DNA of 64,000 bases, taken from Bradyrhizobium sp. LTSP885 (lineage in GTDB: Bacteria > Pseudomonadota > Alphaproteobacteria > Rhizobiales > Xanthobacteraceae). This document shows positions 1 through 58,697 of the stretch, piece after piece. The stretch spans positions 1 to 64,000 of the forward strand of contig NZ_JYMT01000011.1 in assembly GCF_000938305.1 (NCBI RefSeq), read 5' to 3'. A program made the translations under genes and the position numbers. Position 1 is the stretch's first letter; each line of letters begins with the position of its first letter. The notes under the pieces were generated by a model. That model ran no database searches and was not told the origin of the DNA. It saw nothing but the letters and a program-made list of their open reading frames with translations.

Positions 1-19
1 CGTGTGATTCCAAGAAGAG

Positions 20-1123
20 ATGAGAAACGAATCGCTTGTGAACGAAGACTGGGCGCGTGTTGTTTCGCGGCTGGGCGGAGCTGAGGCTCTGGAGGCTGGC
101 GCGCGGGAGACGAAGGCGTTTGTTCGCCCGCGCGAGATCAGCAATGCAGTCGATCTGCTGCGGCTGATCCTTGCGTATTGCCTGGGCACGAGAGGTCTGC
201 GGTTGACGGCGGCATGGGCGACTTCGGTGGGCCTTGTCGATATCTCCAACGTGGCTCTGTTATACCGGCTGCGTCAGTCCGGGGATTGGCTTGCACAGCT
301 GATAGGCCGGGCACTTGCGAGCGGTGCGCCGAAGGCAAGCCGCGGTCGACTGATCCGCATCGTTGACGCCACGACGGTCCCAAAAGCTGGAACCGGCGGC
401 AGGCAGAAGAATGCGGTGTGGCGCATCCACAGTGCGTTCGATCTTCCGCAAGAACGTTTTGGTCACTTCGAGCTGACCGACGAACGCGCGGGCGAGACGC
501 TGGACCGGATCCCGCTGATTGCCGGCGAGATCCGTCTTGCCGACCGCGCCTATCTGCAGCCGGAGCGCATGGCGTATCTGGTCGAGGCCGGTGCGGACTT
601 CGTGATCCGCTCGGGCTGGAAGAGCGCTTGTTGGCTGGATCGCAAAGGCAATCTGATCGATCTCGTCGCCGAACTGCGCAAGGCCGCGGCACGCGGCATC
701 ATCGACCGGCCGATCTGGGTAAAACGCAAGTCTGGTGGAGCACCGCTTGCTGTGCGTTTGGTTGCCGTCAAGAAACCTGCAGATGCGGCTCAGGCTGCAC
801 GGCGCAAGGCACGCAGGACGGCTCAGAAGGGAGGCCATCGTCTCTCCAGGCAAACGCTTGATGCTGCGGATTGGGTGATCCTGGTGACCTCGCTCAAGCC
901 CGAGGACTTCACAACCGCTGATCTGCTTGCCCTTTACCGGCTGCGATGGCGGATCGAACTCGGCTTCAAGCGGCTGAAGAGCCTGATTGGCTTGAAAGGA
1001 CCTCCAGGAACTGACGAGCGGTCTGCCAGACCCCATATCCTCGCTCACCTGCTGATCATTCTTCTGCTCGAGCCGCTTGTCGACGAACTCGAGGACTCTC
1101 CCCGCTTGGCCGAAGCCGCCTAA
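20..1123 (+). CDS. IS4-family transposase, 3' end probably frameshifted
   Basis: Transposase that moves an insertion sequence through a DDE (RNase H-like) active site. The 367-residue frame has the IS4 layout: first acidic residue in RIVDATTV (113-120), second in LADRAYL (173-179), and the YREK-like block YRLRWRIELGFKRLK (306-320). The frame closes at 1123, but coding sense continues in another frame from about 1124 to the stop at 1294-1296, ending YQAMIKLS, a basic tail of the kind these proteins carry. Either a frameshift mutation has split the gene or the tail is reached by ribosomal frameshifting. Terminal inverted repeats were not identified, and the left end lies at or beyond the window edge. 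Confidence 0.85.
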   Translation: MRNESLVNEDWARVVSRLGGAEALEAGARETKAFVRPREISNAVDLLRLILAYCLGTRGLRLTAAWATSVGLVDISNVALLYRLRQSGDWLAQLIGRALASGAPKASRGRLIRIVDATTVPKAGTGGRQKNAVWRIHSAFDLPQERFGHFELTDERAGETLDRIPLIAGEIRLADRAYLQPERMAYLVEAGADFVIRSGWKSACWLDRKGNLIDLVAELRKAAARGIIDRPIWVKRKSGGAPLAVRLVAVKKPADAAQAARRKARRTAQKGGHRLSRQTLDAADWVILVTSLKPEDFTTADLLALYRLRWRIELGFKRLKSLIGLKGPPGTDERSARPHILAHLLIILLLEPLVDELEDSPRLAEAA

Positions 1124-18927: not shown

Positions 18928-19014
18928 TGGCGCGCTCGGAGAAATTCGAACTCCCAACCCTCGGAATCGAAATCCGATGCTCTATCCAGCTGAATCCAGC
19001 TGAGCTACGAGCGC
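18928..19014 (-). pseudogene. tRNA-Arg(TCG) remnant with D-loop insertion
   Basis: Reads as a complete tRNA-Arg with encoded CCA on the minus strand, but the D-loop carries a 10-base tandem duplication (GGATTCAGCTGGATA) and the T-stem has a G-to-U change. The acceptor stem GCGCTCG/CGAGCGC is intact and the anticodon loop TTTCGAT is unchanged. Most likely a decayed copy left by integration or duplication at the tRNA locus; function is doubtful. Confidence 0.75.
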
Positions 19015-19127
19015 GTGTGGTTCGGTCGATTACCAGACCTGAGCTGGAACAGCCAGTGACGCCCGGCCTCAGAAGCAGGGATGGCGGCGGCGATCCTGGC
19101 CCGATATAGGCGGCCGAGCTCTGACCG
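19015..19127 (-). repeat. Duplicated tRNA 5' flank plus remnant of a secreted-protein gene
   Basis: The sequence following the tRNA remnant resembles the right flank of the island: GTGTGG...TCGATTA.CAGAC matches 58309-58330, and CCTCAGAAGCAGGGATG to GCGGCCGAGCTCTG (19063-19119) matches the 3' end of the gene at 58407-58697. A copy of the native chromosomal flank is therefore stranded here, 39 kb from the present flank. Confidence 0.65.
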
Positions 19128-19805: not shown

Positions 19806-19882
19806 TGGCGCGCTCTGAGAGATTCGAACTCCCGACCCCCGGAATCGAAATCCGATGCTCTATCCAGCTGAGCTACGAGCGC
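19806..19882 (-). tRNA. tRNA-Arg(TCG)-like gene, probably degenerate
   Basis: Minus-strand cloverleaf with encoded CCA, anticodon TCG in loop TTTCGAT, and normal D and T loops. It differs from the intact copy at 23584 by an acceptor mismatch (position 7 G facing A) and a G:U pair closing the anticodon stem. It may still fold, but looks like an older copy. Its 5' flank matches that of the remnant at 18928 and the right end at 58309. Confidence 0.65.
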
Positions 19883-20400
19883 GTGTGGTTCGGTCGATTA
19901 CCAGACCTGAGCCGGACGGAGTTACGGTGACAAGTGCACTTAATCGAGAACGAAGGCGTGTGCGGCCGTCGCAGTGCGAGGTGATGTTGTGCGCTGTTCC
20001 AGGGACAACGATGCGAACGAGGGCAGTTATGCCTGTGTGATGAGCGCCCAGAGGGAGGAGTAGGCAATTAAGTGCACTGGCACCGTAGTTCGCCTTACTG
20101 CATTGCAACTCACTACCGAGCGCGACACTTGAGACGGGATGGTGAGCAGCCATCGCTAGCGGAACGGTGGCGCCGGCCAGCAAATTTGCGATCAGGAGCA
20201 TGCGTGCCTTACGACTCCACACCGAGCCCATCATAGCCATCGCTCCATTTGAACACTGGGGGGCGCTAGGCCGGGTTTGTTTCGGGTCGGCTTCGTGGTC
20301 TGGGAAAATGATTTCGTGGGCCGCCCGGCGGGTTTCTTCTTGCGGTATCGTGCGCTAGCGCTCTAGGCTGCCACCATTACTTGAAAAGGGGAGAGCGGAC
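19883..20400. other. Gene-poor stretch after the second tRNA-Arg copy
   Basis: Begins with about 30 bases of the duplicated tRNA flank (GTGTGGTTCGGTCGATTACC). Short frames on both strands lack start sites and family character. I see no gene here. The last 60 bases are the leader of the cold-shock gene. Confidence 0.5.
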
Positions 20401-23583: not shown

Positions 23584-23660
23584 TGGCGCGCTCGGAGAGA
23601 TTCGAACTCCCGACCCTCGGAATCGAAATCCGATGCTCTATCCAGCTGAGCTACGAGCGC
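23584..23660 (-). tRNA. tRNA-Arg (anticodon TCG)
   Basis: Complete minus-strand cloverleaf: acceptor GCGCTCG/CGAGCGC, D-stem GCTC/GAGC, anticodon stem TCGGA/TCCGA with loop TTTCGAT (TCG reads CGA), T-stem GGGAG/CTCTC with TTCGAAT, discriminator G and encoded CCA at 23584-23586. It is the only perfect copy in the window. Its 5' half is part of the 42-bp repeat that bounds the island, so the present 5' flank (promoter side) belongs to the island. Confidence 0.93.
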
Positions 23661-23662
23661 GT
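23621..23662. repeat. Attachment core, left end of the island (attL)
   Basis: 42-bp sequence covering the anticodon loop to the 5' end of tRNA-Arg plus GT. It is repeated exactly at 58269-58310; homology ends abruptly on both sides. This is the expected product of site-specific integration by a tyrosine recombinase into a tRNA gene. Confidence 0.88.
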
Positions 23663-28947: not shown

Positions 28948-31900
28948 TTACTGCACGGATGAAGATGCTGCTGCAGCGGCCTCAATAAGGATCGAGCGGG
29001 TGCTCGTCGACGTGTTGCCCCAGGTGTCGGTTGCAACGTAGTCGATGGTGTCTGTGGCGACGGCGCTCGTGTCCATAACGATGTTGCTTACCAGCGCGCC
29101 GTTTAGGAATGTTTTGTAACCGAGGCTAGTGCCCTGATTGTCGGTCGCGATAGCGCCAAGGTCGGTGTAGGTGTCGCCAACCTGGATGATCGCAGGGTTG
29201 TTGCCCTGGATGTTGATCGATGGGGGAGTGCTGGTGCTGGAAATAGTCGGCGGGGTAGGGGCGCTTATTTGAACCTGGCCCTGTTGTGTCTCAAGAGCAA
29301 GTAGGTCCGCGAGCTGTTGCTGATTTATGCATGTCGAACCGACGCAAAGCTGTTGCGTGTGAAAACTGTCTGCAAATCCAGCAACGATAGCCGTAAGACT
29401 CTGTACTTCGGTCGAGAGAGTCTGAATTGCCTCCACGATCGGAGCAATAAGGCCAAGGTAGTTGAGGCCGAGCGTTCCGTCTGGCGTGAGTGCGGTAGCG
29501 GATGTGGTGGAGACCAGGTTTGGGAAGATCTGTTGCACTTGCTGCGCGATAAAGCCGTACTGGCGCGTGCCTCCTTTTTCTGGATCAAGCCAGTTATAGG
29601 TCACGGGCGTAAGCGCGTTGATTTCTGACAAGGACGTTGAAGCATCAAGAGGAATAACGTTTGTCTTCAAACGCTGGTCAGAACTCTGGGTAAGTGTACC
29701 CGAGAGTTGTGCATTGCCTCCATCGAAGACTGCGAAGAGAGTGGTAGAAGCACTGTTAACAATATTGAAAGCGAGAGTTGAGCTTGCGGTATCGCTCCCC
29801 CAAAGGGAAAGGCGGGCGTAGGGGGTCGTAGTACCAAAACCAATTTTGCTGAAAACGGATTGTGGAGTCCAATAGCTGTTAATAGAACCGGCCGTCCCCG
29901 TGTACATACTCATTACCGTTGCAGCGCCATTTTTCAAGTTATAGAACTCGTCGCTTCCGCCGGTGGCAGCGATTGTCCACCCGGCATTTCCGGCAGCCGT
30001 TCGAACTCCGATAACTGGAGGTGGAGAGCCTGGCATGTCGGTAAATGTAAGCAGCGGATTCGACGCAGCACTAAATCCGTTTGCGGAGATAGCGACCCTG
30101 GATGTGGAGTTACTATTTGCGGTTGTCGTACCGAACCCGAACGGAACACTGGCAGACGGATTGTAAAAGCTTGAATTGGTCGAACTGCCGGTATTTATCT
30201 GAAGAACATTCGTGAGATAGGGGTCCGCTAAGTCGAACATTTCCTGCGAGCCGCCTCCGGAACGAATCGACCACCCCAAATTGGTAACAGAATTTCTTAA
30301 GGCAATTATCGTGTTTGTCGTCTGTTGAAGGCCTGAGAACGTAATTGCACTAGCATTCGCGCTTCCTCCAGCATCTAGCGTTAGCGCTGAATAGTTGGTA
30401 GTCGTCCCAACCGCAAAACGAGAGAAATAGCCTGCCCCGGGAGTTGTTGATCCAATCGTCGGTGGGTTTGCGAAGAGGCTCAGGGCGTTGCTTGGCGTTA
30501 GTGTGGATGCGGAGCTGGCCGGCTGCAATACCGAAAAGCCCTGATAGATATCTTGCGCAACGTCATAGTAGCCTTGGCTATTGAGATGTAGCGTATCGCC
30601 GCTTGCGCGCAGTGACGTTGGCGGCGTGTCATTGCCGTGATCGATTACGTCTTGTGCTTGGTTTGGATCGTAGAGCGATACCAGATACGAGCGCACGTCG
30701 ATAAAATGCGAGCCGTACGTTGTCGCAAGATAAGAGTTTAGATTCGTAATACACGTGTACGCCCCAGTACCGGACCCTTCGGTTGTCGCATTGATAACAC
30801 CGAGAATTACGTAGTTGTTGTTTCCCACGGATTGAAGGGCGGAGACCATCGTTGCGATGTTCGATTCGACGGTAGAAATGCTGCAGCCGTCGTTGCGGCC
30901 CGACCAAATGACGGTAGGCCAGGAATATTTAGCTGTATCCGCAATCATGCGCGCTTCAATCTGCGAGCTGATTTGCCCGCCGACACCGCCGTTGTAGACG
31001 GAAAAGCCAGTGAGCTGTGCCAAATCCGTCGTGTACGGTGTGTTTCCCGCAGTCGCCGCCGTCAGGCTATCTCCCCAAGTCGCAATATGGGTTTGAGCCA
31101 AGAGTGTAGAGGGGGATGCATATCCAAGGCCCAAGTTTGTTCGCGTCGTTGTTGCATCCCCCACGGTCAAGCTGCCGGTAAGATACGCCGAGCCATTCAC
31201 TGCGAACGAGGCAAACGGCGACGTCGTTCCGATGCCCACGTTGCCGGATGAGGTAATGGAGAGGCGAGAAAGGCCCACAGTCTTGTCAAAGATGTCTAGG
31301 CGCCCGGCACCATTGGTATTGCCGGAGCCAGTGGAGATGAGATCGTAGATATGGCCACCCGTGCCGGCGTTGCCTAGGCGCAGCAGGGTTCCAGTTGTCG
31401 AGGTCGAGTCGATTGTGAGCAGCGCGCTTGGGGAAGTGGTGCCTACTCCCACGTTGCCGGAATTATACGAAATGTTCGACCCGGAAGTCGCCCATGGACT
31501 TGAACCGCCGGCCGCAATGCCGAGCGAAGAAGTTGCTATGAGTGTGTAGCCACCTGAACCGTTACCTATGAGTACCTGGCCGTACGTTGGTGCAGTGGAT
31601 GTTCCGGTACCGCCGTTGGTAACGCCCAAGATACCGGTGACGTCGGTCGATAGATTAACGAGTGCAGTAGAAACGACTCCTGCAACAGCTTTGAGGATGC
31701 CATTGAGGTTTCCTATCGTGAGACTGTTTGAGACGACAACGTTTGTTGATGATGCGGTGCCAACAACAGAAGTGCTGCCGGCGAAGGTCGATGTGGCGGT
31801 GGTCGAGGTAGCCTGGAAGCTGGCGCTGATATTCGTGCTGCTCGCGGTGGAAGGAACAACGATGCAGGTCGCGTCGCTCGGCGGACACGTGGGGTTTAAC

Positions 31901-31998
31901 GTTTGGCCAGGCTGATAGGAGGCGGAGGCTACTACCGGGACGAGGAAGAGGAGACCGGCGGACAGGAGCGATACAGAAAGCGTGAGTTTGGATTTCAT
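28948..31998 (-). CDS. Secreted fibre-like protein: SGNH hydrolase + peptidase S74, Patescibacteria-like
   Basis: 1016 residues. Order: signal peptide (1-27, ending VASASYQPGQTLNP), Thr/Ser-rich stalk with repeats of the form SGNVGIGTTSPFASFAVNG, an inserted SGNH/GDSL hydrolase (about 308-500) with all four blocks (GDSLTA, GGVGGQ, WSGRND, DTLHLNSQGY), more stalk, a peptidase S74 chaperone (SSDQRLKTNVIPL with its Ser and YGFIAQQVQQIFP), then HTQQLCVGSTCINQQQL and an Ig-like DUF5011 domain. S74 domains trimerise fibres and cut themselves off. This exact style is typical of Parcubacteria surface proteins, not of rhizobia. A TATATA -10-like box (GATATATAC) lies just upstream. Confidence 0.85.
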   Translation of the reverse strand: MKSKLTLSVSLLSAGLLFLVPVVASASYQPGQTLNPTCPPSDATCIVVPSTASSTNISASFQATSTTATSTFAGSTSVVGTASSTNVVVSNSLTIGNLNGILKAVAGVVSTALVNLSTDVTGILGVTNGGTGTSTAPTYGQVLIGNGSGGYTLIATSSLGIAAGGSSPWATSGSNISYNSGNVGVGTTSPSALLTIDSTSTTGTLLRLGNAGTGGHIYDLISTGSGNTNGAGRLDIFDKTVGLSRLSITSSGNVGIGTTSPFASFAVNGSAYLTGSLTVGDATTTRTNLGLGYASPSTLLAQTHIATWGDSLTAATAGNTPYTTDLAQLTGFSVYNGGVGGQISSQIEARMIADTAKYSWPTVIWSGRNDGCSISTVESNIATMVSALQSVGNNNYVILGVINATTEGSGTGAYTCITNLNSYLATTYGSHFIDVRSYLVSLYDPNQAQDVIDHGNDTPPTSLRASGDTLHLNSQGYYDVAQDIYQGFSVLQPASSASTLTPSNALSLFANPPTIGSTTPGAGYFSRFAVGTTTNYSALTLDAGGSANASAITFSGLQQTTNTIIALRNSVTNLGWSIRSGGGSQEMFDLADPYLTNVLQINTGSSTNSSFYNPSASVPFGFGTTTANSNSTSRVAISANGFSAASNPLLTFTDMPGSPPPVIGVRTAAGNAGWTIAATGGSDEFYNLKNGAATVMSMYTGTAGSINSYWTPQSVFSKIGFGTTTPYARLSLWGSDTASSTLAFNIVNSASTTLFAVFDGGNAQLSGTLTQSSDQRLKTNVIPLDASTSLSEINALTPVTYNWLDPEKGGTRQYGFIAQQVQQIFPNLVSTTSATALTPDGTLGLNYLGLIAPIVEAIQTLSTEVQSLTAIVAGFADSFHTQQLCVGSTCINQQQLADLLALETQQGQVQISAPTPPTISSTSTPPSINIQGNNPAIIQVGDTYTDLGAIATDNQGTSLGYKTFLNGALVSNIVMDTSAVATDTIDYVATDTWGNTSTSTRSILIEAAAAASSSVQ

Positions 31999-42755: not shown

Positions 42756-43043
42756 GGGGTTACCGGCCGAGCAAGAAACTTATCGAATCTACCGGAAGTA
42801 GCAATAGCAACATGGTGTACTCATGCACTGCACAAAAGGGCAGTCCACGGGGCTAGTTAGTCCCATTGTTTCCTGAAGGAAGGTAAGCTCCTTGCCCGTC
42901 CGCCTGCGTTTGAGTGCTTTCTGCAGGAGGTCGGGTAGGTCCTTGTACTGAGGTAGCGCGTCTCTTTCCACGCGCAATGCACTTTACGCGGGTCATTCTC
43001 GCGCACTACACTTCAGAAATAAGGGAATTTTTGGGGGATTTTG

Positions 43044-44630
43044 ATGACGGATTTCTTTCCTACAATTGAAGCTCTTGTCGCGCGTGCTGAGGCAAACGGC
43101 GATGATGGCATAGAGATCAGACGTTCGCTTTACGAGCGAGCAAGAAGCGCAATGCTTGCGGCCTTTCAGAAAACGGCGATGTCGGAGGAGCAGATACATG
43201 CGGAGGAACTGAGTTTCTATGAGGCCGTCGCCAAGGTCGAAGCCAAATACGCTCAGGTCGCTCCGACACCTCAACCTGTTGTTGTTGACGCTATCGAGGA
43301 GGCTGTTTCCCCTACCCAAGCCGAACCCGAAGCTCGGTTAGAACCTATCACCGCCCCAACCATCACTCAAATTGACGCCATCGAACTCGGACCACTCCCC
43401 AAACCGCAAGAGCCTATCCGTTATAGAGGAAAAGTGGAAAGTTTTAACCAGGACACTCGGAAGGGATGGATAAAACTGCTGGGCGAGCCAACGGAGCACA
43501 TCAAGGACTTTGCGGCTCTCGCCATAGCGGATTTTCAGGCAGACACACCGCCAATGAAAGGCGAAGAAGTCGAGTTTTCTCTAAAACCAAATAACAAAGA
43601 GCGAGCACCTCGGGCAATAAAAGTTGATCGCCTCAAGAACCGCCATCGAGGTCAAGTAGTCGTTTGGAACGACGATGACCAGTTTGGCTTCATTAAATGT
43701 CCCGATTTTCGAGACAATATTTATGTTCGATATAAAGAAATTCAGGCTGAAGGTCCGCGTGAACTTATCGTTGGAGAAGAAGTCGAATTTGAAACGCAGA
43801 CGACAGATAAAAGTTTATCTGCAGTCAGGGTCCGAGTCTTTCAATCTCGATTTCCGCTGGAGCGTTTTGCTGACATCGAAAAGTTGAGGTCGGGGGAATT
43901 ACTGGACGTGCTCGCTGGCCGGGACGGCAAAGGGGGACTGGCCCAAGCCGAAGACTGGACCTACAAGCAGAAGAATAAGAAATATCCTCACCCTGTCCTC
44001 TTTAGTTACATCGTGTACACGTTTGCGCAACTTCTTCAGGAAGATAAGCTCGCCTTTGCTACCGATCGGAACGGCAAAAAGGTGGCATGTGGAAACACCG
44101 GTCTTCTGACAAATTTGCAGGAAGATATATATGCCTTCTTTTTGGAGAACCGAGACAAGTCAATTCCTCAAAAATGGACGTTAGATCGTTTCGTCACAGG
44201 TGCTGACGGCCGATTAAATTCCTTTAGCAAACTACCGGAGATCGCGAATTATTTTAACAACCCGGTCGATCTTATTTTTGATGCATCACTGGAGCTTCGC
44301 GAAAGAGCCGAACACATCTTAGAACACAACCTTGAACGCTTTCCAGTGGAGGTGCAAAGTAACAGGCATCAACTTAAGCAAAACTACGACGGCGCTTTAG
44401 CTAATGCGCGCAAACGTGTACTTAGAAACTATAAGACGGCCATCCCTCAATTTCACAAAGGACAGCTGCAACTGTTACTCCCGTTGTGCATGAGGCACTC
44501 AAATATTGCGGATCTTGCTCTTGTCGTTTCAAAGGAGGGCCAAACATATATCGCATCCACCGTCTTGGAACTGGACGACGCCTATAACAACGCGCGGTTA
44601 ATAGCGCGACCTGATAGAGAATGGCTGTAG
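43044..44630 (+). CDS. Double cold-shock-domain / DUF3825 protein
   Basis: 528 residues, lower in GC than surrounding genes. Order: helical N terminus (to about 60), acidic linker, two CSD/OB-like modules (RYRGKVESFNQDTRKGWIKL, about 128-200; HRGQVVVWNDDDQFGFIKCP, about 205-270), and a C-terminal DUF3825-like domain (RFADIEKLRSGELLDVLAGR to LARPDREWL). CSD-DUF3825 proteins occur in bacteria of many phyla, often near defence or RNA-related genes; the biochemistry is unknown, though RNA binding is likely. ATG at 43044 preceded by GGGGG; a TTG one codon earlier is possible. Confidence 0.8.
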   Translation: MTDFFPTIEALVARAEANGDDGIEIRRSLYERARSAMLAAFQKTAMSEEQIHAEELSFYEAVAKVEAKYAQVAPTPQPVVVDAIEEAVSPTQAEPEARLEPITAPTITQIDAIELGPLPKPQEPIRYRGKVESFNQDTRKGWIKLLGEPTEHIKDFAALAIADFQADTPPMKGEEVEFSLKPNNKERAPRAIKVDRLKNRHRGQVVVWNDDDQFGFIKCPDFRDNIYVRYKEIQAEGPRELIVGEEVEFETQTTDKSLSAVRVRVFQSRFPLERFADIEKLRSGELLDVLAGRDGKGGLAQAEDWTYKQKNKKYPHPVLFSYIVYTFAQLLQEDKLAFATDRNGKKVACGNTGLLTNLQEDIYAFFLENRDKSIPQKWTLDRFVTGADGRLNSFSKLPEIANYFNNPVDLIFDASLELRERAEHILEHNLERFPVEVQSNRHQLKQNYDGALANARKRVLRNYKTAIPQFHKGQLQLLLPLCMRHSNIADLALVVSKEGQTYIASTVLELDDAYNNARLIARPDREWL

Positions 44631-49224: not shown

Positions 49225-51744
49225 TTAGTTCTGGCGCGGTCCGCTGCGATTGGGACGTGTTGTCCGAATAGGTGCTGGCTTGGGGTTGTGGACGAATTTC
49301 AGATGAGCCGCAGCTTTTTCGATTGCCTCAACTGCGACGCGGCCACCAATTCCGTGTTCTTCGTAGAACGCATGGCGACGGCAGCGTCGCGTGTATTCGA
49401 AGCGAACGTGGTCGCTAAGAATCTTCATGATCTTCTGCTTCGTCGCTACCTGAAGGTCTGGCCGGTGATCCTGACCGGCCCACAACTGACCGATGTCGTT
49501 GGCAACTTCGCGGGACGCGAATTGCAAATTTGTCGTCAGGCCGATCAGGTACTCGTTCCGTTCTAAGAAAAAACGCATATGGATGAAACCGGATGCGTGC
49601 ATCCTGATCGCGTCGTCTTCTGACAATTTGTCAACGACCAAACTCTCGGGTTCGATGAGTCCCCATTTCACTACTGTCTCAATGGCTTTGAAGGCGTCTT
49701 CCTCATCGTAGCCCAGTTGGCTCATTTTTTTCAGGACAGTGCCGATCGTGGCATATCCTTCTTGGGTGAAATCGATCTTCGCCTTCCGGTTTCGGATTAA
49801 GTATTCCAGGATGTCTGGGATCAGCAAGTTGCTGGGACGATTGTAATCCGTGTCGGCGAAGAGGATGTTGTGAATGTATAGCGATCGGCCGTTATAATAT
49901 TTTTGACGTCCTCGCATTAGGGAACGAATGATGCGGTTCTCTTGAATGCGCATTTCGCCGCCCGTCAAAACAGAGCCTGTAATTTGGCCTGTCGGGATAT
50001 GGGGCGACACGATGATATCGCCAAACATTCCAAGTGCTCGTCTCACATCCTTCGCGACAAGCGCCTCCAGCGCGGAGGCAACTTTCACAGACCTATCGTC
50101 GAACATCGACAGATAGATACCGAGAAGGAATTCGCCGAGCCGTGTTGCGGGATATTTGATCTTGAGGCCAGATGCGAGAGCATATTCTTGCTGCGGGTCT
50201 ACCTCACTCTGAAGCGTCTCCATGACCAATTCCAGGCGTTTGCGAATTACTTGCGCAAACCGCGGCGGCCGGATGTAGAAGTTGATTGCGTTTATGAACG
50301 CATCAAGGGGAGGTTCGTCGCGATGAGCCTCAAATGTGGAGTCGCGGAGATTGATGAGAACGAGTGATTTGGTCAGTTCCTTGAACCACTGCGCAGCTTC
50401 GAAGATTGCTAGCTGCTGATCCCGCGACCGCTTATCGACGTTGTCGAATACTATGACGATGCCAAGATTCATTTCGCCGGAAAAATGCCTGGCGATGCAT
50501 TCTGCTAGCTTCGCGGGATCTTTTGTCAATTCATCGAGCAAGTCCGTGCGGCGTCGCACGTACTCAGTTCGATCATTGTTCTTGAGGGCCTTGGCCGGGC
50601 TTCGTTCGAAGCGGCGAAGCTCAGAACCGAATATTTTCTCGATTTGGTCGGCCTCATAGAGATCTACATTATTGATCTCAGCGAACGAATTGGCGAACTG
50701 CTCGGCGATCCATGTCCTGAGGCCGTCAAGCCCAGGAGGCATGACGTTGAAGTTGAGAAAGGCCCACCGAGTTTTCTTGCTGACTTCATGTGTCATTAAT
50801 CGTCGGTAGAAGCGGCGGATAAACGTGCTCTTACCAGCACCGACTGAACCAATAATGAGCTGAACGCGGGCATTCGAGGACGGGCTTAAAGAATATTTCT
50901 GGATTTCGGAGGAAATGCCAGTGGCTGTGTTTTTGCTCGTGACAATTGCCTTGAGCTGATTTCCCGCGATTTTGTCGGTGCGGTCCTTGAGATAGGTTTC
51001 GAGTACACCCTCGTAGTTGCCGAGTTCATCTGAGGTGACGTATGCCCGGTCGATTACCTCGTCAGGCGTTTCATCGGAGTTGCTGCCGAAGTATTTCGTG
51101 ATGGTGCTGAAGAGGGGTTCCGCAAAATCGTTGACGCCAAGCTGCTGCGCTAGCCTGGATGGGCCGCCCATAAACGACGCAACGCTGTAGAAAGTGCGCG
51201 CTTGGAAATGCGAACCAAGCTTTTCGACGCGGGCTTGGAGGGCGGCAAGACCGATCGCGCCTTGAAAAGCAGCGAGGAGGGCGGTTCCGGGTTGTACGTC
51301 GGCACACGGCGCGATGAGTCCACCAACCTCGCTATCCCACGCCGAAAGACCGAATTGCAAACCATTGCAAGCAAGCACGAAGCCTATTGGGTTTACTTCG
51401 GGCGGATAGCGTTTGTTGATCTCGGACGCATACAGGCGCGCCTCCCGCATCCCCAATTCAATCGCGACATCGGTGGCTTTTGCCTCGACGATCACCAGTG
51501 GAATGCTATTGAGCCAAATGGAATAATCCGGGAAATAGCCATACCGTTTCCCGGCCGCTTTATCGATCTCAGTCGGCGTCATGTACTCTTTGGTACGTAT
51601 CCAAGCGGTCCTGAGGCCGAGATAACTGGGATTGATCAGAAAGGGCAGAATGACCTTGTGTTCAACGTCACTCTCCGTGCGGAGGTCGCCCGGTTTGACG
51701 ATGGGTACAACTGACGATGGCTTGCTGGGTAGGCGAGTGACCAC
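49225..51744 (-). CDS. HsdR_N nuclease fused to P-loop NTPase, candidate defence protein
   Basis: 839 residues. Residues about 25-130 resemble the type I restriction HsdR N-terminal nuclease domain, with the PD-(D/E)xK signature YGYFPDYSIWLNSIPLVIVE-AKA. About 285-480 is a STAND/KAP-like NTPase: Walker A IIGSVGAGKSTFIRRF (about 298) and Walker B LGIVIVFDNVDKRSRD (about 430). The rest is helical with winged-helix-like segments (LEYLIRNRKAKIDFTQEGYA). No HsdM or HsdS is adjacent and the helicase motifs of HsdR are absent, so it is not ordinary type I restriction. A nucleotide-switched nuclease in phage defence is the best inference. Confidence 0.75.
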   Translation of the reverse strand: MVTRLPSKPSSVVPIVKPGDLRTESDVEHKVILPFLINPSYLGLRTAWIRTKEYMTPTEIDKAAGKRYGYFPDYSIWLNSIPLVIVEAKATDVAIELGMREARLYASEINKRYPPEVNPIGFVLACNGLQFGLSAWDSEVGGLIAPCADVQPGTALLAAFQGAIGLAALQARVEKLGSHFQARTFYSVASFMGGPSRLAQQLGVNDFAEPLFSTITKYFGSNSDETPDEVIDRAYVTSDELGNYEGVLETYLKDRTDKIAGNQLKAIVTSKNTATGISSEIQKYSLSPSSNARVQLIIGSVGAGKSTFIRRFYRRLMTHEVSKKTRWAFLNFNVMPPGLDGLRTWIAEQFANSFAEINNVDLYEADQIEKIFGSELRRFERSPAKALKNNDRTEYVRRRTDLLDELTKDPAKLAECIARHFSGEMNLGIVIVFDNVDKRSRDQQLAIFEAAQWFKELTKSLVLINLRDSTFEAHRDEPPLDAFINAINFYIRPPRFAQVIRKRLELVMETLQSEVDPQQEYALASGLKIKYPATRLGEFLLGIYLSMFDDRSVKVASALEALVAKDVRRALGMFGDIIVSPHIPTGQITGSVLTGGEMRIQENRIIRSLMRGRQKYYNGRSLYIHNILFADTDYNRPSNLLIPDILEYLIRNRKAKIDFTQEGYATIGTVLKKMSQLGYDEEDAFKAIETVVKWGLIEPESLVVDKLSEDDAIRMHASGFIHMRFFLERNEYLIGLTTNLQFASREVANDIGQLWAGQDHRPDLQVATKQKIMKILSDHVRFEYTRRCRRHAFYEEHGIGGRVAVEAIEKAAAHLKFVHNPKPAPIRTTRPNRSGPRQN

Positions 51745-51889
51745 GGGTTCACCTCAGGTGATTCGGCATTGTATCCGGAACCTGGGCAGAGTCAGCCGTA
51801 ACCCATGAAAATAATGGCGGAAATCCCGCCTTTAATATTGAGCGAAGCGGTTGTTGGAATCCTTCTGTGCCGCGCGAGCCTTTTGTTCG

Positions 51890-52060
51890 TTAGGCCGCGA
51901 GGGATGCCGGCTCGTCAATACATACGCTCTGCACGAACGCTTCCCACTTTTCCATCGCTTCACGCATTTCGGGAAGGTACGTCCACAGGTCGTAAGTGTC
52001 TTCCATGTCGGTGCGAGCGGAAATGTGATTGACTAGGCGCTCGGCAATGTCGGTCGAATT
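51890..52060 (-). pseudogene. Integrase 3'-end remnant, copy B
   Basis: Minus-strand sequence encodes ERLVNHISARTDMEDTYDLW-like residues and ends EASLAA-like, matching the last 50 or so codons of the intact integrase (56985). Identity is high (for example CTTCCCACTTTTCCATCGCT is shared). The upstream part of the gene is absent. Confidence 0.85.
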
Positions 52061-52664
52061 TTCAACTGGCCAAGGTTAAGTGCGGAGGTTCGCCGTCAAT
52101 CGTGCGGCGTCCAGGTTGGAATGCACCCGCTACATCACTCGAGAGACCGTTCGGCTGGGCCGCGGCATGGGCCGGAAGGGTTGCCCCCAAATTACACCAC
52201 GACGAATTCTACCGTCTCGGCAAGAAGCCGTTGGAGGCGAAGTAGGGGGAGCAGATGGACCACGTGGACAGGGTCCGGGCGATCCTGACGATGTCGCGGT
52301 ACGAGAGGGCAATCTTCGGCCGGTAACGGTGGATGAACAGATTTTATTTTTAGGTGCGCGCTCTCGAGGTAACACCGCGGCCCTTTGATTTTGCTAGGAA
52401 ATGTCAGCGGTCGTCGTGTTCCCTGGTAAGGGACATGGTGCGAAAAATAATCGCAAAAAGATCAACAACTGAAAGATATTAGCGGGATAGGGAGGAGGGG
52501 TTCGCTATTGTGTGTCAATGGTGTGCCAGCAAGTTTGAAATAGGTGAGCAATTTCAGTGCTGGCATGTCGGTCATTTGACACGATTTGGCGAATACCCAC
52601 TTCTGACAAAACCCCCTGAGAAAGCCGATTCGCTCTTCATGTTTTTCAAATGGAGAGCTGTGTC
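52061..52664. other. Decayed stretch with a 71-bp imperfect hairpin
   Basis: No gene is supported here. 52512-52582 forms a long imperfect inverted repeat: GTGTCAA/TTGACAC at the ends, TGCCAGCA/TGCTGGCA (52524-52531 and 52558-52565) and TTTGAAAT/ATTTCA inside. It might be a terminator-like or binding structure. Confidence 0.45.
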
Positions 52665-52921: not shown

Positions 52922-53887
52922 TTAGGCTTTTCGGATGAAGGGGTGTCCAGGGTGGATTAGAGAAAGCCGCCCGTTGTTGCACATAATTGCCCACTCCTCC
53001 CGTTTTGAAAAACCCGGCGACTGAACATTCGTCTCCAGATAGAAGATGCTGCTGACTCTGGAACTTTCCGGTACCTGGAGGGCGATCTGCCCAAAATGCG
53101 ATTCATGAATTGCCTCTTGGAATATCGGCACATCAGGCGGGGATGAGATCGTGCGACGGAACACCGTTAGTTTTGTATTTGGGCGATCGACGGTCGTGGA
53201 TTTTTTGAAAGGGTTGACCTGAAAAGGATTTGTGAGCGCAACATCAACGAGAACGTCAATAATGGCGTGATAGGCAGGAGCAGGCGACTCGTTGGTGATA
53301 ATACAACCGAGCAGGAATGACTTAGAAAGGTTGATTCCCGCAGTGAAGTCGGCAATGAGGATGTCTTTACCCGCCAAATCCAGGCCAACATGCAGGTCTG
53401 GCGTGGATGATCGCCGCATGATGTCCTTGATCTGGTAATCGTCCATCGCGACCGCTTCTAGCTCATAGCGTTTGTAGTATTTCTTATCGGGTGCCTGGTG
53501 TGGGCCGGTTTGGGTCGGTTCGACCGTGATGACGAAACCAAAACCCGTTGCGCTTAGCGGAATGCGCTGGACGGTCAGGCCGTCCATTCGAGGGTGGACG
53601 TTAGAACCAAGGATCTGATGCATCCATTCACGGGTGATTTTCTCATCGGTAACCCCATCATCGACGGCCGTGGGCTTATGGGTTTTCTTATCTTCCTCTA
53701 TCCCGTAGATGATTTGGCCGCCCGCCGAATTGGCCATCGCAGACACGTCTTTGCAAAGCTCCAGGACATTTTTGCTGTCCCGCGTCAGGGCAGGGGATGC
53801 CTTGTATTCGATGGTAAGGGTTTCCTCGACTTGAGCATCAACCATCTTCTGGAAGTCGGCGCGATCGGCAATCGTGAAATCGGGCAT
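52922..53887 (-). CDS. AlbA_2 (Schlafen-like) domain protein
   Basis: 321 residues from the MPDFTI start at 53887. The N-terminal AlbA_2/Schlafen domain (about 1-165) is recognised by ETLTIEYKASPALTRDSKNV, VSAMANSAGGQIIYGIEED and YYKRYELEAVAMDD. The rest (about 175-320) is beta-rich without a known domain. AlbA_2 domains bind or cleave nucleic acid and occur in bacterial defence genes. It starts eight bases after the nuclease gene stop, so the two are one operon. Confidence 0.72.
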   Translation of the reverse strand: MPDFTIADRADFQKMVDAQVEETLTIEYKASPALTRDSKNVLELCKDVSAMANSAGGQIIYGIEEDKKTHKPTAVDDGVTDEKITREWMHQILGSNVHPRMDGLTVQRIPLSATGFGFVITVEPTQTGPHQAPDKKYYKRYELEAVAMDDYQIKDIMRRSSTPDLHVGLDLAGKDILIADFTAGINLSKSFLLGCIITNESPAPAYHAIIDVLVDVALTNPFQVNPFKKSTTVDRPNTKLTVFRRTISSPPDVPIFQEAIHESHFGQIALQVPESSRVSSIFYLETNVQSPGFSKREEWAIMCNNGRLSLIHPGHPFIRKA

Positions 53888-53895
53888 GGGTGAAC

Positions 53896-55119
53896 TCAGG
53901 TTGGAACGTCGAAGGCCAGGATGGTAACAATCACCTCGCGACGCGGGTCTTTGGAATTGCCAAAGGTGCACCGGAAACGGCTCGCGCCTTCCTTCTTGGG
54001 ACCGTGTTTCAAATTCGGATGGCTAGTAAGAGAAGTCTCTATCGTTTTAAGCACGCCCGAGAAGTCCTTGTTTCGGTTGAACACCAAAACGGCCGTCTTC
54101 GTGTCACGCCAACTCAGATAATCTAGGAGCTGAGTTATCGTTGCGAGGAAGCTTTTCTCGCCTCCCCAGAATTTGCACTCAGCTATAAAAATGTTCCGGT
54201 CTTTGACCCGGATAAGAATGTCGGTCTTGCCTGTAAAGTTGAAGGTCTCGCCCGAAGCCGCACCTTCGAAGTGACCGTTCAACTGAACAAGGAAATGCTG
54301 GCGCAGGTTCTCTTCGCCCATAGTTTCAAATGCGGAAGGGCTACGTTCCATCACAAGCGCCATTGATTGGACAATATTCAGAATGGCCTGGTAGTTCGCC
54401 TCTTCGAGAACGGGCTCTGGTTCAAACGGTGCCGAGGTTGCGGGCAGCGCGGCCACGATCTTCTTTCGGACGAGCGGAGCAACGTACGTCTTTGGAGTGT
54501 CCGCCCTGGTGCGAATCGGAAAGGCTAACCCCGCCACCATTTTCCGAGCATCAAGCAATTTCTGTTTGCGCGCTTCGATTTCGGGCCGTAGCCGATTTGG
54601 GAGACTTTGGCGGTGCTCGTCTGTCATTGCGCGTTGGTAGCCAAGATATTCCTCGATCTCGTCGGATCTAACCTTAAATTGCTCATTGACGTGAGCGGGC
54701 TGCAGATTTTCGCCTCGCACGACGAGTATGATGTTGTTGTTGTGAAGATTAGCGCGGATTGCGCCGCCCCACCTTCCCGGGTTGATGTAGAGCATGCTTC
54801 CTTCGCCATCGAAGGGGATAATGAGCGCCAAGAGCGTACCCCGTAAACGCACCTCCCGTCCGTAATCCGGGTATTTGATTTCGACCTCATGCGGGCCATC
54901 AACGTACGCATCCGCTATCCGAAGGGTGGGCGGAGTGAGGCTGTATTTGTTCGACAGGTCGCTGACGATGTCCTCGGTAGGCGTATTCAGGAACGTGTCA
55001 GCAGGAATCTGCTGCACGGCTTGCAGTGCCTGCTGCACCTGGTAGGAAACCACATTGTGCATGTCCTGATTATTGAACAGCGCAACTGGTTCACCTAGGG
55101 CAAGGACGCTAACAATCAC
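53896..55119 (-). CDS. PD-(D/E)xK nuclease-like protein
   Basis: 407 residues. The N-terminal part (about 1-200) is beta-rich and contains VEIKYPDYGREVRLRGTLLA. The C-terminal part carries GKTDILIRVKDRNIFIAECK, i.e. D-x11-E-x-K of the restriction-fold family, followed by QLLDYLSWRDTKTAVLVFNR with a helix typical of Mrr/VRR nucleases. Probably cleaves DNA. First gene of the pair with the AlbA_2 protein; the unit sits between two integrase remnants. Confidence 0.72.
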   Translation of the reverse strand: MIVSVLALGEPVALFNNQDMHNVVSYQVQQALQAVQQIPADTFLNTPTEDIVSDLSNKYSLTPPTLRIADAYVDGPHEVEIKYPDYGREVRLRGTLLALIIPFDGEGSMLYINPGRWGGAIRANLHNNNIILVVRGENLQPAHVNEQFKVRSDEIEEYLGYQRAMTDEHRQSLPNRLRPEIEARKQKLLDARKMVAGLAFPIRTRADTPKTYVAPLVRKKIVAALPATSAPFEPEPVLEEANYQAILNIVQSMALVMERSPSAFETMGEENLRQHFLVQLNGHFEGAASGETFNFTGKTDILIRVKDRNIFIAECKFWGGEKSFLATITQLLDYLSWRDTKTAVLVFNRNKDFSGVLKTIETSLTSHPNLKHGPKKEGASRFRCTFGNSKDPRREVIVTILAFDVPT

Positions 55120-55340: not shown

Positions 55341-55466
55341 TCAAGCTGCGAGCGATGTCGAAGCGTCCACGCAAACGCTTTGCACGAATGCCTCCCACTT
55401 TTCCATCGCTTCCCGCATTTTGGGGAGGTAGGTGTAGAGATCGTATGTTTCTTCCATAACCGTTCG
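55341..55466 (-). pseudogene. Integrase 3'-end remnant, copy C
   Basis: Minus strand encodes EETYDLYTYLPKMREAMEKW and ends DASTSLAA followed by a stop at 55341. It matches the integrase C terminus including the Tyr region but diverges after about 40 codons. The remainder of 55120-55520 holds no gene I can support. Confidence 0.85.
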
Positions 55467-55913: not shown

Positions 55914-56774
55914 CTATCCGTAAAGCTGCAACAGAACGGCATGAAGTTCGGATTGAAGCGCTGAGATGCGCGCTATTGCGTCTTTGAAAATCTGCTTAAA
56001 CGTTTCCTCCTTGTAAACTGGAGATACGCGCGCGGCCATGATTTGTGGTTTGTAACCCAGAGCCAGAAAAAACGTATTCACAACCGTGCAATTGGGCTCG
56101 AAATAGTAGGCAACCGCATTGAGATCGTGTTGGAAAGATTGATCCTCGAACTGGAGCTGACCTAAAAGCTTTCGAAATTTGAAGAATACGGCGGGATCGG
56201 TTTTAGGTTGTGGCCCGGGCAGCTGAGATTTGTCGAAATTCTCAGATATTTTATTCTGTTTCGCGATGTTGAACTCAATCCATTTGGCTCTCGCCTTGGC
56301 AATGAAGTCATCTGGTAGGTCATCGTAAGCTACGCGGCCATTGAGAAGGCCGAATTCCTGCAGGACTTGTAAGTATTGTAACTTTGCAAGCTCGGGCCAA
56401 ATCGAACCATCACTGCCGGGCAAGAACGGAATCTTCTGAACCGTCTTCGCGTCGTCTACTGTTGTCTTAAATGCAAGCTCGCGCCCATATAGTTCTTGGA
56501 TGAACATGCTTTGGCGGTTTATGAGCTGTTCGGCCTCTTTCATACATTGCGCGTGGTTTGTGACGTACCCGCCGCCGACAGACAGCAGCAGCGCCGAGAG
56601 AAGCCATAGGACGATCCCGCTATTGATAAACGCCCAAAGCTTACTTTTCTTTGGCTCAACCGGCTTGGCCAGCCTCTCTCGAAGCATCCTGTTTCGGATC
56701 TTCTCGTATTTCGGCATTCTGGCCACGACGGGCTCCAATCGTTCGCTCGCCACGGTCCAATATGCATAACACAA
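55914..56774 (-). CDS. Membrane-anchored protein of unknown function
   Basis: 286 residues, or 267 from MPKYEKI (56717). One transmembrane helix (INSGIVLWLLSALLLSVGGG) after a basic cytoplasmic N terminus; the remainder is helical, with HAQCMKEAEQLINRQSMFIQ and LRKLLGQLQFEDQSFQHD-like segments. No catalytic motif is seen. Lower in GC than the core. Its place beside the integrase, in the same zone as the nuclease pair, makes a defence or accessory role possible but unproved. Confidence 0.6.
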   Translation of the reverse strand: MCYAYWTVASERLEPVVARMPKYEKIRNRMLRERLAKPVEPKKSKLWAFINSGIVLWLLSALLLSVGGGYVTNHAQCMKEAEQLINRQSMFIQELYGRELAFKTTVDDAKTVQKIPFLPGSDGSIWPELAKLQYLQVLQEFGLLNGRVAYDDLPDDFIAKARAKWIEFNIAKQNKISENFDKSQLPGPQPKTDPAVFFKFRKLLGQLQFEDQSFQHDLNAVAYYFEPNCTVVNTFFLALGYKPQIMAARVSPVYKEETFKQIFKDAIARISALQSELHAVLLQLYG

Positions 56775-56984: not shown

Positions 56985-58130
56985 TCACGCGGCAAGTGAT
57001 GTCGGAACGTCGATGCAAACGCCTTGGACGAATGCTTCCCACTTTTCCATCGCTTCGCGCATTTCGGGGAGGTACGTCCAGAGGTCGTAGGTGTCTTCCA
57101 TGTCCGTGCGAGCGGAGATGTGGTTGACCAACCGCTCCGCGATATCGGGGCGGACTTTCAGGCGGCCGAGGTTTGTTCGAAACGTTCGGCGTAGGTCGTG
57201 CAATGTCCAGGGCGCAATGTTGGCGGTCTTGTCGAGAGCCTTCTTGCATTTGCTCCAACCGCTGAAAGGTCGGTCGCCCTCACGCACCGGCCCGCGAGCG
57301 GGGAAGAGCAGGGGACTATCGCGGTTCTCCTGAACTTTCTTGTGAATAATTGCCGAGGCCATTGGCCCGACTGGGAAGGTGTGCACCCGGTTGTTTTTGG
57401 TAAGTTCGCCGGGAAGCGTCACGGTTTGCTGATTGTGAGAGTAGTGGAGTTTAGCCAACGCTCCGGTCTCGCTGCGGCGTTGACCCATCAAGATGAGCAA
57501 CCGGACGATTTCTCCAAACTCTCCTTCAGTCTGGCCGGCGGCATGCCAAACGGTTCGCAGCTCCTCGTCCGTCAGGATGCGCTTGCGCTTCTTAGACTTC
57601 GCAATCTGCATCCCTTCAAGCGGGTTGACGGTGATGTATCGCCGCTGTGGCCGGATAGCCCAGCGGAAGAATATCCGGCAGACGGCCAAGGCGTGGGCCT
57701 GCTCGCTGGGGGTATCGATCAAGGGGTCTGTGATGGCCGAAAGCATAAACGGGGTAACCGCGTCCATACGCTTCGGCTTGAGCGTTGGGAGGAAGTGCGT
57801 TTCGATCATCCTGCGGTAGTCCCGCTGGGTACGCGCCTTCCGGCGGGCGATGTAGTCCGTTTTGAAGATCTCGTAGGCCTCGCCGAAGGTCACCCGCTGA
57901 CCGCTTAGGGGCGTCGCAGCAAGGAGCCGCTTGGCCTCCTTCCGGGCGTCGGCAAGACTGACGGCAGGGTAGTGGCCAATCCGGATGCGCCGTCGCTCCT
58001 GGCCTCGCATGACAATCCACGTGCGGCGATGCTTGCCGACTCGGATGCCAAAGGCAGGTGTCGTCTCGTCAAAATGCGTGCCCGCGGGAAGCGAACGCAC
58101 GGTCAAATCGGTGAGGCGCGCGGTAGGCAT
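56985..58130 (-). CDS. int: Tyrosine integrase of the island
   Basis: 381-residue P4-like tyrosine recombinase with an N-terminal DUF4102 arm-binding domain (LTDLTVRSLPAGTHFDETTP, RIRIGHYPAVSLADARKEAK). Catalytic residues: Arg in LMGQRRSETGAL, HxxR in TLHDLRRTFRTNL, His in ERLVNHIS, and the Tyr nucleophile in EDTYDLWTYLPEMREAME. It inserts the island into tRNA-Arg; the att core lies 139 bases upstream of its start. The TTGGCTC arm sites touch its start codon, so binding may also repress its own expression. Two truncated copies of its 3' end lie to the left. Confidence 0.93.
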   Translation of the reverse strand: MPTARLTDLTVRSLPAGTHFDETTPAFGIRVGKHRRTWIVMRGQERRRIRIGHYPAVSLADARKEAKRLLAATPLSGQRVTFGEAYEIFKTDYIARRKARTQRDYRRMIETHFLPTLKPKRMDAVTPFMLSAITDPLIDTPSEQAHALAVCRIFFRWAIRPQRRYITVNPLEGMQIAKSKKRKRILTDEELRTVWHAAGQTEGEFGEIVRLLILMGQRRSETGALAKLHYSHNQQTVTLPGELTKNNRVHTFPVGPMASAIIHKKVQENRDSPLLFPARGPVREGDRPFSGWSKCKKALDKTANIAPWTLHDLRRTFRTNLGRLKVRPDIAERLVNHISARTDMEDTYDLWTYLPEMREAMEKWEAFVQGVCIDVPTSLAA

Positions 58131-58268: not shown

Positions 58269-58310
58269 AATCGAAATCCGATGCTCTATCCAGCTGAGCT
58301 ACGAGCGCGT
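58269..58310. repeat. Attachment core, right end of the island (attR)
   Basis: Exact 42-bp copy of 23621-23662: anticodon loop to 5' end of tRNA-Arg. The 3' half of the tRNA is missing, so it is not a functional gene. The sequence beyond (GTGGGTCGATTATCAG) is the native chromosomal tRNA flank, also found at the remnants near 19 kb. Confidence 0.88.
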
Positions 58311-58406
58311 GTGGGTCGATTATCAGACTTGGCTTGCGAGGGCCAGCAGCCCCGGCGCGTGTCCACCGATGCGGTGTCCGCGCCGTCTCCCGCCGCTTTT
58401 CCGCCC

Positions 58407-58697
58407 TCAGAAGCAGGGATGCCGGCGGCGGTCCTGGCCGATATAGGCGGCCGAGCTCTGGTAGCATTTGCTGGTCGAGGGGCCGTCGTAAAAGGCGAAG
58501 GTGCCCGCGTCCGGGCCGGGGCCGTAATTGTGCAGATAGCTGATGTGGTAGGGCAGGCCCCAATAGGCGTGCCGATAGTGGTGATGCCGGTGGTGCGGGT
58601 AGGCGGAGAGGTCGGCCGCGACGGCCGGGGTGAAGGCCACGGCGGCAGAGGCTGCCATGGCAACGGCGAACGCGGCAAAAAGCTGGATCTTGGTCAT
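58407..58697 (-). CDS. Secreted His/Tyr-rich small protein
   Basis: 96 residues with a signal peptide (FAVAMAASAAVAFTPAVAAD) and a short mature part with YPHHRHHHYRHAYWGLPYH and two Cys (CYQSSAAYIGQDRRRHPCF). A decayed copy of its 3' end lies at 19063-19119. First core gene right of the island. Function unknown; metal binding possible from His content. Confidence 0.65.
   Translation of the reverse strand: MTKIQLFAAFAVAMAASAAVAFTPAVAADLSAYPHHRHHHYRHAYWGLPYHISYLHNYGPGPDAGTFAFYDGPSTSKCYQSSAAYIGQDRRRHPCF

Follow-up and report, generated by a model that had tools for sequence, protein, structure and literature searches.

Gene calls and island setting

Two adjacent genes, named A and B here, lie on the minus strand of the window, that is, of the whole stretch of 64,000 nucleotides that was analysed (Table 1). 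Both are real genes: near full-length relatives of gene A were encountered across many phyla, and those of gene B in the genus of the window at 39-57% identity. The GTG start of gene A is preceded by a GGAG at about nine nt. The frame of gene B itself opens further up, with a GTG at 53971, but this longer version is unnecessary judging from the alignment, where the ATG at 53887 approximately coincides with the start of close relatives. The original prediction described two genes eight bases apart, one with an AlbA_2 domain and the other with a restriction-fold nuclease domain behind a large N-terminal domain of no known identity. Eight nt were indeed measured between the TGA of gene A and the ATG of gene B, both frames were confirmed as genes, and the two are probably read from one transcript.

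Table 1. Coordinates of genes A and B, their domains and the surrounding island features
Feature	Position	Strand	Remarks
Gene A	53896..55119	-	407 aa, open frame, GTG start
Gene A, N-terminal alpha/beta domain with long helix	residues ~10-200		predicted model
Gene A, linker	residues ~205-235		low confidence, predicted model
Gene A, C-terminal PD-(D/E)xK nuclease domain	residues ~236-407		motif and predicted model
Gene A, putative nuclease motif D300...E314-C-K316	54172..54222	-	invariant in 61 aligned sequences
Gene B	52922..53887	-	321 aa from ATG at 53887; Schlafen/AlbA_2
Degenerate, frameshifted integrase 3' end	51882..52123	-	far side of gene B; 78% identical
Degenerate integrase 3' end	55341..55466	-	last 42 codons including stop; just upstream of gene A
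Intact tyrosine integrase (Arm-DNA-bind_3, Phage_integrase)	56985..58130	-	next to right end of island
tRNA-Arg (anticodon tcg)	23584..23660	-	probable left end of island
Probable right end of island	58269..58314	.	46 bp identical to 19843-19888

The pair belongs to an island of ~23.6-58.3 kb with a GC content of 54.2%, while the flanks reach 64.7% (left) and 61.9% (right). The 46-bp repeat at the probable right end consists of the end of a tRNA-Arg gene (19806-19882) and 6 bp beyond it, and 42 bp of this repeat are also identical to 23621-23662, at the tRNA-Arg of the probable left end. Full or partial copies of tRNA-Arg (tcg) are found in tandem at 18928-19048, 19806-19882, 23584-23660 and 58269-58331, which suggests that integration took place repeatedly at one tRNA gene. 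Segment 19063-19123 also resembles 58401-58460 (93%).

A TraD/TrwB-like coupling protein and a replication-initiator-like protein, the latter just under the Pfam cut-off, are encoded on the island as well. The remaining content includes a 529-aa protein with a cold-shock domain and DUF3825 (43041-44630) and a 1016-aa protein with GDSL lipase, Peptidase_S74 chaperone and Ig-like domains (28948-31998). An 839-aa protein (49225-51744) joins an HSDR_N nuclease domain to a P-loop ATPase part, matches PHROG 14719 (function unassigned) with an E-value of 7e-78 and is possibly another defence gene of the island.

The pair had been placed beside an integrase. The mobile-island setting stood up, while immediate adjacency did not: the intact integrase is only near, being separated from the pair by a 286-aa frame (55914-56774) and by the 3' remnant of an integrase. 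This remnant is 82% identical to the end of the intact integrase, and tblastn extends it to 55514 with 65% identity over residues 328-381. Altogether, three integrase 3' ends share the same orientation, the two degenerate ones and that of the intact gene (56985-57219), and each is followed after ~140-220 bp, in the same direction, by a cargo frame: the 286-aa frame behind the intact integrase, the A-B pair behind the middle remnant and the 839-aa gene behind the third. The remnants look like leftovers of related elements because their sequences differ from that of the intact integrase. A relative of the latter was present in one other genome of the 146 searched (74% identity), with a B-type gene ~1.4 kb downstream. 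This arrangement suggests stacked integrase-linked modules, each with its cargo, and also suggests that A and B came to the island as cargo, perhaps together, which does not imply that they work jointly.

Gene A, a candidate nuclease of family PDC-S54

The C-terminal part of gene A displays a D-x13-E-x-K motif that, like E270, E291, Q330 and the W337-R338-D339 triplet, was invariant among the 61 aligned members of the family. The model of the whole protein reached a mean pLDDT of 87.8, with the long helix at residues 141-197. A PDB-wide sequence search revealed no relative of gene A, and Foldseek retrieved nothing at an E-value of 0.001 with the whole model. In a structural comparison with VIA, restriction-fold enzymes topped the list over residues ~206-407, all with Z below 8: OkrAI (Z 7.5, rmsd 4.2, 140 aligned residues), a McrBC chain of 336 residues that is presumably McrC (Z 7.0, rmsd 4.3, 113 aligned), EcoT38I (Z 6.4, rmsd 4.5, 125 aligned), NucC (Z 5.6, rmsd 4.4, 138 aligned) and BsaWI (Z 5.4). 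Unrelated folds followed closely at Z of about 5 (yeast acetyl-CoA carboxylase, RNA polymerase subunits), and Z values of 5-7.5 fall within the range that VIA itself describes as common for models without a clear match. The Z values alone are thus insufficient, but motif and structural list combined make a nuclease fold likely; the predicted restriction-fold domain is supported by the invariant motif and, more weakly, by the structural comparison.

The N-terminal domain of ~200 aa was predicted with a pLDDT of 96.3 when modelled alone, and the best Foldseek E-value was 0.089. CesT (Z 6.0, rmsd 3.1, 80 aligned) and ribosome recycling factor (Z 5.5, rmsd 4.4, 89 aligned) were considered as relatives from the VIA comparison and set aside, both lying below the trustworthy level. 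In line with the unknown domain of the original prediction, this is a confidently predicted domain without a clear known fold in the searches made.

Gene A had no Pfam match at E-values up to 1 and no fitting NCBIfam family. It matched PADLOC model PDC-S54 (PDLC05036) almost over its full length (E 1.1e-143, residues 13-406 against profile positions 6-407 of 410), as did all four distant relatives of gene A that were tested. By profile match, it is a new member of this already listed single-gene candidate family, from which gene A itself displayed no difference; the AlbA_2 gene downstream is the only unusual feature of the present locus. The pair had not been recognised as a named system, which holds for the pair as a whole, none having been found that covers it, but not for gene A alone. 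In the available portion of PMC12988326, PDC names stand for putative defence candidates derived from guilt-by-embedding, mostly unvalidated, and further PDC genes occur in a survey of Streptococcus thermophilus (PMC11514479, as far as its available text goes). The name PDC-S54 was absent from the literature searched, where no report of an activity was found for any member.

Relatives of gene A were widespread and sparse. On plasmids, they were detected in 22 of 72,556 records, 11 of these covering at least 80% of the query, and the hosts ranged over proteobacteria, cyanobacteria, planctomycetes, actinobacteria, Spiroplasma, Deinococcus and haloarchaea. Genomes yielded 205 confirmed stretches, and the best 80 of these 205 include Methanolobus and a Lokiarchaeon. 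Across the order, four of 397 genomes carried gene A, the present one included and one of the four being weak; across the genus, the incidence was 12 of 257 genomes at an E-value of 1e-15, again including this one, and at least two of the others harbored broken copies (G561, G623). Two of 50,697 phage records contained gene A and none contained gene B; viral contigs provided three loci for gene A and one for gene B. When the DNA of the pair was compared with plasmids, seven records matched, each over 5-11% of the query and always within gene A.

Among known systems, Shedu (SduA) has a comparable layout, in which one protein joins an N-terminal part of its own to a PD-(D/E)xK nuclease at the C terminus (according to the part of PMC12839542 that was available). 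Unlike Shedu, gene A gave no match to SduA_C (PF14082) at Pfam E-values up to 1, and PF14082 had no match anywhere in the genome of the window. Identification of gene A as Shedu was discarded on this ground and on that of hhalign, which returned a probability of 1% against two Shedu-domain proteins of the genus. By analogy, Shedu is the nearest working model for gene A, though gene A is not Shedu by sequence. Type IV restriction enzymes with an Mrr catalytic domain share the PD-(D/E)xK-type motif, and, as with them, no methyltransferase was seen beside gene A; they differ in that gene A lacked a Pfam match to Mrr_cat. The profile of gene A scored 0.1% against one Mrr protein of the genus, a weak test with a single protein.

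Gene B, a bacterial Schlafen-type protein

Residues 22-145 of gene B matched Pfam domain SLFN_AlbA_2 (PF04326) with an E-value of 1.8e-15 and 57.9 bits against a cut-off of 25.3, in agreement with the AlbA_2 domain predicted originally. It was the sole match to this domain in the genome of the window, and the C-terminal part beyond it contained no other Pfam domain. Compared with the PDB as a single sequence, gene B gave chance-level matches only, CheY (E 0.097) coming ahead of CbCash (E 0.79), while a profile built from gene B and 14 relatives retrieved CbCash (9ylu, E 1e-15), Schlafen 8 (E 2.7e-8), SLFN11 and SLFN14; the link of gene B to Schlafens in the PDB consequently needs the profile. 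CbCash, or related wording, was absent from the literature searched.

In the available text of PMC5862951, SLFN13 lost tRNA cleavage upon mutation of E205, E210 or D248, E205A and E210A being fully inactive. Residues E22, E27 and E65 of gene B align with these three catalytic positions, in a register counted by hand with chain 5yd0 taken to be 13 ahead of the numbering of the paper. The third acid is thus a glutamate in gene B versus an aspartate in SLFN13. The four closest aligned relatives of gene B displayed Glu at the third position and Glu or Asp at the second, and relatives L103-L105 had Asp at position 27. Gene B is a bacterial Schlafen-type protein with an apparently intact putative active site, as judged from these alignments. 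Like SLFN13, SLFN11 and CbCash, it has an AlbA_2 domain and the three acidic positions; in contrast to the Schlafen-core RNases, it is made of a single AlbA_2 domain followed by its own C-terminal part.

Two relatives, L099 and G493, shared 74% and 72% identity, respectively, with the AlbA_2 domain of gene B, and in both cases the match ended near residue 170. An effector whose sensor can be exchanged would be expected to look like this, with AlbA_2 retained and the match ending at this point. Prokaryotic Schlafen-linked systems can counter phages by tRNA cleavage, and BREX-linked Schlafens are fused to histidine-kinase and wHTH parts (both from the accessible part of PMC12839542); Pfam gave no sign of either in gene B. 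The literature searched contained nothing on AlbA_2 together with phage defence and restriction endonucleases.

Association of the two genes and its interpretation

Conservation of the pair was followed from both of its members. The 83 other loci of gene A, whose genomic part consisted of the best 80 of 205 stretches and whose flanks were at most 6 kb long, many ending at contig ends and L082-L084 having little flank, contained no close relative of gene B. When all ORFs were scanned with a wider AlbA_2 profile, two of the 83 gave a match: a 460-aa protein of another AlbA_2 subtype in Lokiarchaeal locus L045, where its gene precedes gene A by 333 bp in the same orientation and a type I specificity gene comes after gene A, and a weak match in L026 (E 1.5e-5) on the strand opposite gene A. 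Within the genus, gene B was found in 32 of 257 genomes at an E-value of 1e-15, the present one included. Both genes were present in three of the 257 genomes and adjacent in one only, namely here; they were ~0.6 and ~1.1 Mb apart in the other two. Twenty same-genus loci, picked by hand among DNA matches to this region, comprised seven with gene A, 11 with gene B, two with neither and none with both, and gene A was absent beside the out-of-genus relatives of gene B in L103 and L105. Genes A and B are both patchy, and mostly occur in different genomes.

The original prediction of a coupled two-gene pair was not borne out by the neighbourhood search it had called for, and the two outcomes it had named as telling against it, a pair not conserved elsewhere and a match to a named system, were largely those obtained. 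A conserved two-gene unit was rejected on the basis of the 83 gene A loci, the neighbourhoods of gene B relatives and the searches across the genus. As the genes stand together here and almost never elsewhere, they are probably two stacked defence genes and not one new system.

The surroundings of the two genes change from locus to locus. Gene A was mostly solitary: an ORF of at least 100 aa followed it in 79 of 83 loci, lying on the opposite strand in 39 of the 79, and only eight of the 79 displayed a same-strand ORF of this size within 30 bp, with eight different lengths. The single-gene definition of PDC-S54, that is, no constant partner, agrees with this genomic proxy, few neighbours being recurrent. 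Out of 157 adjacent ORFs, 89 were on the same strand within 400 bp; among the 25 commonest of the 62 Pfam and 209 PADLOC families assigned to them, type I specificity and ResIII proteins were counted three times each and GmrSD_N, Fic and Abi_C proteins twice each, these being raw counts. The 89 also included housekeeping genes (glutamate synthase, glutamine synthetase), and a run of metabolic genes accompanied a gene A relative on a Rhizobium plasmid. An Ec67-type retron gene on a Rhizobium indicum plasmid (L110, 3927-7251) is followed, ~320 bp on, by a relative of gene A.

In the genus, gene A was followed by a SIR2-like gene in one locus and by an unnamed gene of ~390 aa, gene C, in three, with gaps of -4, -32 and 15 bp; in the locus with the gap of 15, gene A was broken. 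These and the following gaps are approximate, since gene starts were set at the first possible start. The gene C family (~345-416 aa; L132:7080-8246, L133:4629-5879, L142:6662-7699 and L124:6736-7920) had no Pfam or PADLOC match in the three members tested. In the three loci just described its members follow relatives of gene A, and in one locus a member immediately precedes a relative of gene B.

Upstream of gene B-type genes were found gene C (11 bp), a gene for an AbiJ_NTD4 protein (17 bp), an HNH gene (34 bp), an 87-aa piece resembling the same HNH by eye (9 bp) and, farther off, an Mrr gene (158 bp). On viral contig L099 (4298-5966), a DUF2971/PDC-S31 gene overlaps by 8 bp the AlbA_2 gene mentioned above, whose product is unlike gene B beyond the AlbA_2 domain. 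A role of gene B as the dedicated downstream partner of many nucleases was striking at first and was then abandoned, such spacing being no commoner than background: five of 26 intact gene B copies of the genus had an upstream gene no more than 40 bp away and at least 150 aa long, one of these neighbours being LysR-type by eye, versus 181 of 764 genes (24%) in the other fetched loci. All in all, the surroundings of A and B look like free reshuffling among defence genes.

The reading that we hold to be moderately probable is that of two separable, probably co-transcribed defence genes, one for a DNA nuclease and the other for a Schlafen RNase, within one cargo module. Gene A would then be a stand-alone nuclease of PDC-S54 type, in which the N-terminal domain would detect incoming DNA or some other sign of infection, the long helix may serve assembly, and the C-terminal domain would cleave DNA much as Shedu or type IV restriction enzymes do. 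Gene B would be a metal-dependent RNase, probably acting on tRNA under the control of its own C-terminal part; it would halt translation once infection proceeds. The two may form two antiviral layers, neither requiring the other. Some cooperation is conceivable, since the eight-nt gap and the integrase remnants on both flanks suggest that the two genes arrived together. These same features, with both genes on one strand and between two remnants where they may have moved as a unit, also speak for a genuine two-component system needing both genes, in which A would sense and cut phage DNA and B would be activated by A or its products, or would restrain A; the same-strand AlbA_2 gene of L045 points in this direction too. 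Such a system is nonetheless unlikely in view of adjacency in a single genome of the genus against 12 with A and 32 with B, of the 20 same-genus and 83 gene A loci without the combination, and of the nature of the two AlbA_2 matches, that of L045 being of another subtype and on the other side of A and that of L026 weak and on the opposite strand.

A regulatory role is often ascribed to AlbA_2 proteins, and gene B could be a nucleic-acid-binding regulator or co-factor, not an RNase, of an upstream defence gene that is freely exchanged. The succession of gene C, AbiJ_NTD4, HNH, DUF2971/PDC-S31 and, farther off, Mrr genes ahead of B-type genes is consistent with this role, but tight upstream neighbours were not enriched and the three acids of gene B stand at catalytic positions of Schlafens, so that it appears unlikely. 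Gene A may likewise be a nuclease with another task on mobile elements, such as DNA repair, maintenance of plasmids or islands, or exclusion of rival elements, its defence label coming from neighbours alone. Its presence on plasmids of several phyla, recombinases near it in some loci and housekeeping genes in others, and the mostly unvalidated guilt-by-embedding origin of PDC families (PMC12988326, in its available portion) are in line with such a task; its very patchy spread over order and genus and its repeated defence-type neighbours make it quite improbable. To the preferred reading of two separable genes may be added a broader and rather doubtful proposal, according to which the island grows by stacking integrase-linked modules, each with defence cargo ~140-220 bp behind an integrase 3' end, and genes for DNA nucleases or of abortive type (PDC-S54, HNH, Mrr, gene C, AbiJ-like) are freely combined in such modules with a Schlafen RNase gene, giving a mix-and-match defence in two layers (DNA cut, then tRNA) of which A-B would be one combination.

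The supposed two-gene system thus becomes two individually testable genes. Gene A represents a well-conserved candidate nuclease family that extends across bacteria and archaea and for which no experimental record was found in the literature searched; gene B is a prokaryotic Schlafen with an apparently intact putative active site. The integrase remnants on both sides hint at module-by-module addition of such genes to the island, and the gene C family constitutes a lead for new defence genes.
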